From NCBI RefSeq assembly GCF_900095305.1, contig NZ_FMDO01000044.1:62001-126000 (forward strand): a stretch of DNA of 64,000 bases. The letters are read 5' to 3'. Origin of the DNA: Proteiniborus sp. DW1. GTDB lineage: Bacteria; Bacillota; Clostridia; Tissierellales; Proteiniboraceae. Within the stretch, counting starts at the first letter, position 1. Each line of letters begins with the position of its first letter. Position numbers and translations under genes: made by a program. The notes under the pieces were generated by a model, which ran no database searches, was not told the origin of the DNA, and saw only the letters and a list, made by a program, of their open reading frames with translations. This document shows positions 38,908 to 41,384 of this stretch, piece after piece.

Positions 38908-39040
38908 GGTTAGGTCATTTTCCGCAGTCTCGCAACACAAATTTACTTGCTCGCTGTCGCTCGAGTAAATTTGGTGCTCATTGCGTTTGACCTACCATCG
39001 ATTTTCGAAAAAAAGCATTCGGAAAATCGGGTTAGGTCAT
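38908..39040. repeat. Interspersed repeat, copy A
   Basis: The 133-bp copy starts with GGTTAGGTCAT and ends with GGGTTAGGTCAT. Inside are an AAATTTACT/AGTAAATTT hairpin, the word ATTGCGTTTGACCTACCAT and a CGATTTTC/GGAAAATCG hairpin. It aligns over nearly all its length with 57463-57590 and, inverted, with 52673-52766. The right end touches the A-run that forms the T-run of the transketolase terminator. Confidence 0.85.
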
Positions 39041-39065
39041 AAAAAAACAAACCAGTGTTATTATA

Positions 39066-39431
39066 GGTTCTATAATAGATGAGAATAGGGATGCTGTTGA
39101 TTTAATGCTGCTATATAATGATGATTTACGTGTTGCTCATAAGCTTAAAGAATGGTTTTATGAAATATGTCAAAGTGATAAATACTCTTATCAGCGTACA
39201 GAATTAGTTAAGTGGATTGAAAATGCAGAAAACTCTGGGATACCAGAGTTTGAGAAGTGTGCAGCTACATATAGAAGATGGCTTAAGGAGATTAAGAATG
39301 CCTTTAAATATGGTTATACTAATGGTCCAACTGAAGGGTTTAATAATAAGATCAAGGTGTTAAAACGAGTATCTTTTGGAATTAAGAACTTCCAGAGATT
39401 TCGTAATAGGATTATTCATTGTATGAACTAA
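39066..39431 (+). pseudogene. ISL3-family transposase, C-terminal fragment
   Basis: The frame is open from the element's left end and covers the last 120 or so residues of an ISL3 transposase. The diagnostic tail YTNGPTEGFNNKIKVLKR followed by FGIKNFQRFRNRI contains the final catalytic Glu of the DDE triad. The N-terminal zinc finger, helix-turn-helix and the two Asp residues are missing, so it cannot be active. An ATG at 39105 is internal and has no ribosome site. Confidence 0.88.
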
Positions 39432-39602
39432 ATATAAAGAAGAATTTAATATCTGTAAAAGCCTACATTTTAGATAGGTTTATTAAGTGCACCCTAAAAC
39501 ACGTGTTACTTTGTCTAACTCCATCGCTATATTAAATTTGGTCTAAATGCAGTAATGGAGCGGGATTAAAGAAAATCCCACCCCAACTATTGACAAAGAG
39601 CC
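39066..39602 (+). mobile_element. ISL3-family insertion sequence remnant
   Basis: The 537-bp remnant is flanked by perfect 8-bp direct repeats TTATTATA (39058-39065 and 39603-39610), the target duplication size known for ISL3 elements. The right end, read inward, is GGCTCTTTGTCAATAGTTGG, a typical ISL3-like terminus. The left end begins GGTTCTATAATAG, which resembles it only in part and already lies in the transposase reading frame. About two thirds of a normal element is missing. Confidence 0.85.
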
Positions 39603-39633
39603 TTATTATACTGGTTTGTTTTTATGTAATTCC

Positions 39634-40572
39634 CTATCTTCTTCCAATTGCTCTTCTTGCAGCTTCTACTATTTTATCTGCTGTTAAGCCATATTTCACA
39701 AGGAGCTCATCTCCACTTCCTGATTCTCCAAAAGTATCTCTAACTCCTACTCTTTCCATTGGTATTGGATAGCTTTCCACTAATACCTCTGCTACTGCAC
39801 TACCTAAACCGCCTATTATGTTATGCTCCTCAGCTGTGACTATTGCTCTTGTTTCTCTAGCTGCTTCTATTATTATATCCTTGTCTATAGGCTTAATAGT
39901 ATGAATATTTATTATCCTAGCTTCTATTCCTTCTTTTTTAAGAGCCTCTGCCGCCTCAAGTGCTAGAGAAACCATTATTCCAGTGGCTATTATAGTTACA
40001 TCTGAGCCATCTCTTACCTTTATGCCTTTGCCTATTTCAAATTTATAGTTTTCTTCATCAAATATTACAGGCACTTTACTTCTTCCTAATCTTATATATA
40101 CAGGCCCCTTATGCTCTGCTGCTTTCATAATTGCAGCTTTTGTTTCTACTCCATCAGCAGGATTTAGAACTACCATATTAGGTATGGTTCTCATGATACT
40201 AATATCTTCAAGAGCTTGATGAGATGCTCCGTCCTCTCCAACAGTTAACCCAGCATGTGTAGCAGCTATTTTTACATTTAATTTTGGGTATGCTACCGAA
40301 TTTCTAATAATTTCAAATGCTCTACCTGCTGCAAACATGGCAAATGAGCTTGCAAAGGGTATTTTACCTGTTGTAGCTAGCCCTGCCGCAGTTGCTATTA
40401 GGTTTTGCTCCGCTATACCAACATTTATAAATCTTTCTGGGAACTCTTTAGCAAAAACTGCTGTTTTTGTAGAACCAGAAAGGTCAGCGTCTAATACTAC
40501 TACATCTTTATTTAGTTTGCCTAATTCTTTTAATGCTTCACCATATGCGTCTCTTGTAGCCATCATTGCCAT
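39634..40572 (-). CDS. Transketolase, C-terminal subunit
   Basis: The 312-residue protein holds the pyrimidine-binding and C-terminal domains of a split transketolase. Visible motifs are RFINVGIAEQNLIATAAGLA with the catalytic Glu, PFASSFAMF, HAGLTVGEDGASHQALEDI and the C-terminal GLGSAVAEVL. It moves two-carbon units in the non-oxidative pentose phosphate path with the N-terminal subunit next to it. Its ATG overlaps the stop of that gene by one base behind GGAGGTG. Its terminator has been split by an IS. Confidence 0.95.
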   Translation of the reverse strand: MAMMATRDAYGEALKELGKLNKDVVVLDADLSGSTKTAVFAKEFPERFINVGIAEQNLIATAAGLATTGKIPFASSFAMFAAGRAFEIIRNSVAYPKLNVKIAATHAGLTVGEDGASHQALEDISIMRTIPNMVVLNPADGVETKAAIMKAAEHKGPVYIRLGRSKVPVIFDEENYKFEIGKGIKVRDGSDVTIIATGIMVSLALEAAEALKKEGIEARIINIHTIKPIDKDIIIEAARETRAIVTAEEHNIIGGLGSAVAEVLVESYPIPMERVGVRDTFGESGSGDELLVKYGLTADKIVEAARRAIGRR

Positions 40573-41384
40573 TATAATTCACCTCCAAGTTCAGCAAATG
40601 CTTTTTGTGCTTGTTCTGCATTTGGTGCAGTTCCATGCCAATTAGCTTGATTTTCCATAAATGAAACACCTTTACCTTTAACTGTTTTAGCTATAATCAA
40701 AGTTGGTTTGTCTTTTATAGCTTTACTCTTTTCTAACGCATCAAATATTTGATTAAAATCATGTCCATCTATCTCTAATACATTCCATCCAAAAGCTTCA
40801 AATTTCTTATTTACTGGCTCTACGTTCATTACATCTTCATTATGTCCATCAATTTGTAATCCATTATGATCCATGAATACAGTAAGATTATCCAGCTTAT
40901 AATGTGTAGCAAACATTGCAGCCTCCCAAATAATCCCTTCCTGAATCTCACCATCACCTACTAGAGCATATACCCTGTAGTCTTTATTATCAAGCTTAGC
41001 TGATAATGCCATACCATTGGCTACTGCAAGTCCTTGACCTAGGGAACCAGTGGACATATCTACTCCTGGAGTACCTTTCATGTCTGGATGCCCTTGTAGC
41101 ATTGAATTGATTTTTCTAAATTTCATTAGCTCTTCTTTTGGGAAAAAGCCTCTTTCTGAAAGTGTTGCATATAGAACAGGAGTTGCATGTCCCTTTGATA
41201 ATACAAACCTGTCCCTGTCTTCCCACTTGGGATTACTTGGGTCTATCCTCATTTCTTTAAAATAAAGTGCTGTTAGTATTTCACATGCAGATAATGATCC
41301 TCCAGGATGTCCTGACTTAGCTTCATGTGTCATCATAATAATGTCTTTTCTTAAGGTATTTGCTATTTGTTTATAATCTTTCAC
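40572..41384 (-). CDS. Transketolase, N-terminal subunit
   Basis: The 270-residue subunit binds thiamine diphosphate: AKSGHPGGSLSACEILTALY, the GDGEIQEGIIWEAAMFA metal/ThDP motif and NGLQIDGHN are present. Split transketolases of this kind are common in Clostridia and archaea. The start is a GTG at 41384 behind AGGAGG. It is probably co-transcribed with the YitT gene 10 bases upstream, although a functional link is not evident. Confidence 0.95.
   Translation of the reverse strand: MKDYKQIANTLRKDIIMMTHEAKSGHPGGSLSACEILTALYFKEMRIDPSNPKWEDRDRFVLSKGHATPVLYATLSERGFFPKEELMKFRKINSMLQGHPDMKGTPGVDMSTGSLGQGLAVANGMALSAKLDNKDYRVYALVGDGEIQEGIIWEAAMFATHYKLDNLTVFMDHNGLQIDGHNEDVMNVEPVNKKFEAFGWNVLEIDGHDFNQIFDALEKSKAIKDKPTLIIAKTVKGKGVSFMENQANWHGTAPNAEQAQKAFAELGGEL

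Follow-up and report, generated by a model that had tools for sequence, protein, structure and literature searches.

An ISL3-family relic within the terminator hairpin of a transketolase gene pair, and enrichment of related insertions at intrinsic terminators in clostridia

In the genome of Proteiniborus sp. DW1, a relic of an ISL3-family insertion sequence (IS) splits the hairpin of the transcription terminator that follows a pair of transketolase genes, and ISL3 relatives in other clostridia are found at terminators two to seven times above chance. The site lies in a stretch of 64,000 nucleotides of contig NZ_FMDO01000044.1 (hereafter the window, with all coordinates counted from its first base). 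We think it probable that the IS entered the AT-rich terminator loop as one case of a general bias of its subgroup toward AT-rich octamers and terminators. On this reading, an ISL3-family element entered the loop of the terminator downstream of the two transketolase genes, giving an 8-bp target duplication, and a segment of about 945 bp lying between the left end and the midpoint of the transposase gene is now gone; we infer that the deletion came after the insertion.

The insert occupies positions 39066–39602 (plus strand, 537 bp), and its assignment in a preliminary description of this DNA to the ISL3 type was borne out by a profile search, with a match to DDE_Tnp_ISL3 (PF01610) at E = 6.5e-34 covering profile positions 129–240. 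Equally, the claimed 8-bp duplication is exact: TTATTATA stands at both 39058–39065 and 39603–39610, with 537 bp between the two copies. Related inverted repeats are present at the two ends as in complete relatives (IRR GGCTCTTTGTCAA, IRL GGTTCTATAATA). The left one (IRL, 39066–39077, plus strand) matches the outermost 12 bases of complete relatives exactly and is truncated by the internal deletion; the right one (IRR, GGCTCTTTGTCAATAGTTGGGGTGG on the minus strand) is at 39578–39602. A complete relative in genome G008 (locus L159) measures 1482 bp, has the left end GGTTCTATAATAAATGTTGGGG and the right end GGCTCTTTGTCAATAGTTGGGG, encodes a 391-aa transposase with the ISL3 zinc ribbon, a helix-turn-helix and the full DDE domain, and is flanked by an exact 8-bp duplicate (TTTTTTAT); exact 8-bp duplicates also flank most complete relatives. 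In the alignment of the two, bases 1–16 of the complete element match first, and bases 960–1482 follow from base 13 of the window element onward, the two segments sharing a short ATG where the deletion joins them. As these two matching segments reach both termini, the window element has two genuine ends and lacks about 945 bp internally. What remains of the transposase gene is its C-terminal half (39078–39431, plus strand, stop codon at 39429–39431), and no complete ISL3 transposase (PF01610 protein) was found in the Proteiniborus sp. DW1 genome. Judged by this gene content, the window copy is a relic unable to move by itself. A small hairpin is located just inside its right end (39560–39580) and also in the IRR-proximal part of four other copies (L124, L129, L131, and L148), with stems that differ by copy (GGGATT/AATCCC, GGTATT/AATACC, and GGTAATATC/GATATTACC); it seems to have been kept despite these different sequences and, if so, would point to a subterminal structure that is conserved.

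The transketolase genes are both encoded on the minus strand, the N-terminal subunit at 40572–41384 (PF00456) and the C-terminal subunit at 39634–40572 (PF02779, PF02780), the latter directly upstream of the terminator. When the IS is excised and one duplicate is kept, the minus strand reads AAAAACAAACCAGT-ATAATAAC-ACTGGTTTGTTTTTTT, i.e., 14 pairs, an 8-nt loop, and a run of seven T, and the stem begins about 10 nt past the stop codon of the C-terminal subunit gene; the rebuilt stretch of 65 nt folds at -21.3 kcal/mol. The terminator hairpin that the preliminary description had rebuilt after the transketolase genes, with the insert at the centre of the palindrome, was thus recovered. Its 5' arm (AAAAACAAACCAG on the minus strand) is now at 39611–39623 and its 3' arm with the T-run (ACTGGTTTGTTTTTTT on the minus strand) at 39041–39056. 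The further claim that the duplicate is the loop itself holds for seven of the eight loop bases, but the remaining base of TTATTATA belongs to the stem.

According to the same description, an empty site lacking the hairpin would refute its reading. In genome G002, from one of two other species of the genus that were compared, the empty site carries the hairpin: an uninterrupted AAAAACAAACCAGTGTTGATTCAACACTGGTTTGTTTTT stands without the IS right after the orthologous gene, the protein of which is 94% identical. Here as well as in G002, a GC-containing stem and then a T-run follow the gene, as in intrinsic terminators, and a different hairpin with a T-run was seen at the corresponding position in a further genome of the genus (G001). 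Since the hairpin exists free of the IS in G002, the terminator is in all likelihood older than the insertion. That the inverted arms were instead part of the mobile element, or arose together with it, can practically be dismissed: no point in favor of such an origin was found, the flanks of other ISL3 copies are unrelated, and the identical stem, unbroken after the G002 orthologue, refutes it. Termination after the transketolase genes is plausibly weakened by the insertion, as we infer from the hairpin arms being now about 550 nt apart. The relic also contains a terminator-like hairpin of its own (minus strand, 39251–39230), which might partly replace the split terminator.

A survey was performed on 150 distinct ends of the ISL3 subgroup of the window element, collected from the order and the class. 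Ends were located by exact patterns, and diverged copies therefore escaped detection; both the scoring of hairpins and the thresholds applied were devised for this analysis, genes were masked via long open reading frames, and many of the surveyed genomes are drafts that show an element by a single end. An IS256 control family was left out because the number of credible ends located automatically was too small. At 40 of the 150 ends (27%), a hairpin directly abutted the 8-bp duplicate, compared with 17.7 expected from intergenic positions with an identical or nearly identical octamer (2.3-fold); none of 100,000 simulations produced as many as 40. The other copies are enriched at hairpins, and the random targets that would have refuted the preliminary description were not what was seen. 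Among the ends outside reading frames, 31% were at hairpins, as opposed to 4.3% of the AT-rich octamers in the same flanks (approximately 7-fold). Each insertion has two ends, normally only one of which is able to face a hairpin, and hence roughly half of the surviving insertions of this ISL3 subgroup are situated at intrinsic terminators. A possible orientation bias, with IRR facing the hairpin more often than IRL, fell short of significance (29 of 89 vs. 11 of 61, P = 0.06). Within the Proteiniborus sp. DW1 genome, four of the eight other right ends (C4, C13, C14, and C25) adjoin a terminator T-run.

These counts could also arise without any structural targeting, if the transposase prefers AT-rich octamers and purifying selection spares the harmless sites, which in low-GC genomes are often the T-runs of terminators; we give this explanation somewhat less than an even chance. 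The duplicates consist of 90% A+T (69% in the flanks), which agrees with it. In genome G164, assembled in few contigs and containing many 1350-bp copies, 8 of 17 insertions scored as terminator insertions (2.3 expected genome-wide), while matched intergenic octamers were already near hairpins in 13–35% of cases and gave an expectation of 4.2, leaving a modest excess (P = 0.036). Furthermore, the elements of a more distant ISL3 subgroup in G692 sit on octamers made up almost entirely of A and T, and about 2 of 15 lie at terminators. This low terminator bias indicates that the preference differs between ISL3 subgroups, and it does not support a family-wide property of ISL3. On the other hand, neither AT content nor non-coding location accounts for the whole effect in the surveyed subgroup, as the 2.3-fold excess survives matching for both octamer and non-coding position, rises to 3.3-fold for the strongest hairpins, and reaches 3.6-fold in a paired, end-by-end local control (16 vs. 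4.4 expected, of 73). Under the general bias that we favor, several causes would act together: selection would clear insertions from genes and promoters and so produce part of the terminator excess, T-runs would offer good AT-rich targets in places where an insertion is harmless, and the remaining bias would come from the hairpin, or from RNA polymerase pausing there, easing attack or strand transfer. It is the 2- to 3-fold excess left over matched intergenic octamers that suggests this last contribution. Targeting proper, as opposed to survival in harmless places, appears to be about an even bet.

The position of the junctions within terminators bears on what is being hit. The end of the hairpin 3' arm peaks 5–9 nt outside the element junction, the background past 55 nt being about 1%, and at terminators the duplicate is typically the T-run itself. 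Accordingly, this ISL3 subgroup usually hits the T-run on the 3' side of the stem rather than the loop. The preliminary description had proposed to survey ISL3 copies for 8-bp duplications within terminator loops: such duplications do recur at terminators, but those within loops are rare. A transposase that specifically picks hairpin loops, as the preliminary description read the window case, would also fit an insertion in Enterococcus faecium about halfway through a terminator (PMC11702846) and locus L315, yet the other complete copies with an exact duplicate have a stem on one side only, flush with the duplicate, which speaks against loop targeting as a rule, and 3.6% of background octamers are themselves placed in loops at a hairpin score of at least 20. 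We therefore hold this explanation to be very improbable. Within the window's subgroup, the other complete copies flanked by exact duplicates all lack a strong hairpin across the duplicate. L315 (genome G711) belongs to another ISL3 subgroup and is a second, independent loop case, its duplicate TTTATTAC being placed where loop and stem of a terminator-like hairpin meet. For the set of complete copies that was examined, two such cases do not clearly exceed chance. For hairpins with a score of at least 35, about 0.5% of the AT-rich intergenic background octamers are in the loop, and the window hit is unusual for a random AT-rich insertion, although the case was chosen for being striking.

A stronger version of targeting, which we regard as rather unlikely, is that this ISL3 subgroup actively recognises terminators. 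The T-run flush with the stem would be attacked and, because RNA polymerase pauses and releases the RNA at precisely this run, the duplicate would coincide with the U-tract of the terminating transcript; an unrelated palindromic repeat would use the 3' end of the same T-runs.

Such a dispersed palindromic repeat (38908–39039, minus strand, 48 matches in its own genome) begins directly after the T-run of the transketolase terminator (TTTTTTTA/TGACCTAACC, the slash marking the junction) and is not present after the orthologous gene in G002. Its unit of approximately 120–130 bp (TGACCTAACCCGATTTTC...GGTAGGTCAAACGCAATGAGCACC...GAGACTGCGG; loci L406–L443 in the same genome) has a fixed 5' end and a variable 3' end, and units are sometimes in tandem. 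Of about 26 copies at the head of an array, about 22 follow immediately on a hairpin and T-run, with the junction TTTTA/TGACC (18 by score and four by eye, one of the latter being the window copy, whose hairpin the IS split). Of the 198 genomes searched in the order, 50 gave matches to the repeat (loci L445–L473). Besides terminators, some copies there follow what by eye look like 23S 3' ends (L454, L460, and L472), 5S ends (L462 and L469), and a tRNA end (L464), as if the 3' ends of structured transcripts were the shared target. Three copies in the Proteiniborus sp. DW1 genome (L408, L413, and L422) lie between an apparent T-box leader terminator and the controlled gene. A search of Rfam returned no match at E ≤ 1 for the transketolase terminator site or the palindromic repeat. 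With regard to Y1/RAYT-like transposases as possible movers of the repeat, there were six matches in the genome, and in the stretches inspected around them none had the repeat at its flanks. Y1 transposase genes of 200–264 aa (C44:56463, C44:60266, C44:186448, C58:23967, and the window copy) resemble REP-associated transposases; the one in the window, at about 2235–2567 (G000:C44:64235–64567), has an internal stop and is near repeats of the type GAAGCACGGGGACGGGG. The palindromic repeat may merit more attention than the IS.

If terminators are indeed preferred by a widespread DDE insertion sequence, they would offer a refuge in which damage to the host is limited, and insertions could turn transcription stops into read-through, as has been reported once, in E. 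faecium (PMC11702846). Such a preference would also provide a concrete link between transcription termination and DNA transposition.

The window element shares with the ISL3 family the DDE_Tnp_ISL3 domain, inverted repeats starting with GG, and AT-rich 8-bp duplicates, and differs in being an internally deleted relic. No report of a terminator preference of ISL3 elements was found in open papers, subscription papers and ISfinder notes being outside the scope of this search. Among other mobile elements, group IIC introns and Tn7 also use terminators, inserting at them or immediately downstream; the former, however, are retroelement ribozymes and the latter uses a dedicated target-selecting protein and one site, whereas the ISL3 element is a simple DDE IS without such parts. 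A close experimental case is an ISL3-associated insertion in E. faecium, which has an 8-bp duplicate, is located about halfway through the intrinsic terminator of an rRNA operon, and is reported with read-through and co-transcription of the inserted genes (PMC11702846). Both the duplicate and the position resemble those in the window, but there the inserted DNA is a plasmid-borne segment bounded on one side by an ISL3 element, and it was recovered under selection at a single site. Other insertion sequences target REP palindromes (PMC1525189) or, in the IS1202 family, dif/pdif sites (PMC10132070), and, like the present elements, hit non-coding DNA at targets that are structural or site-specific. 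The REP, dif, and pdif targets, however, share sequence, whereas the terminators hit by the ISL3 elements described here share architecture only (a stem and a T-run), each with a sequence of its own.
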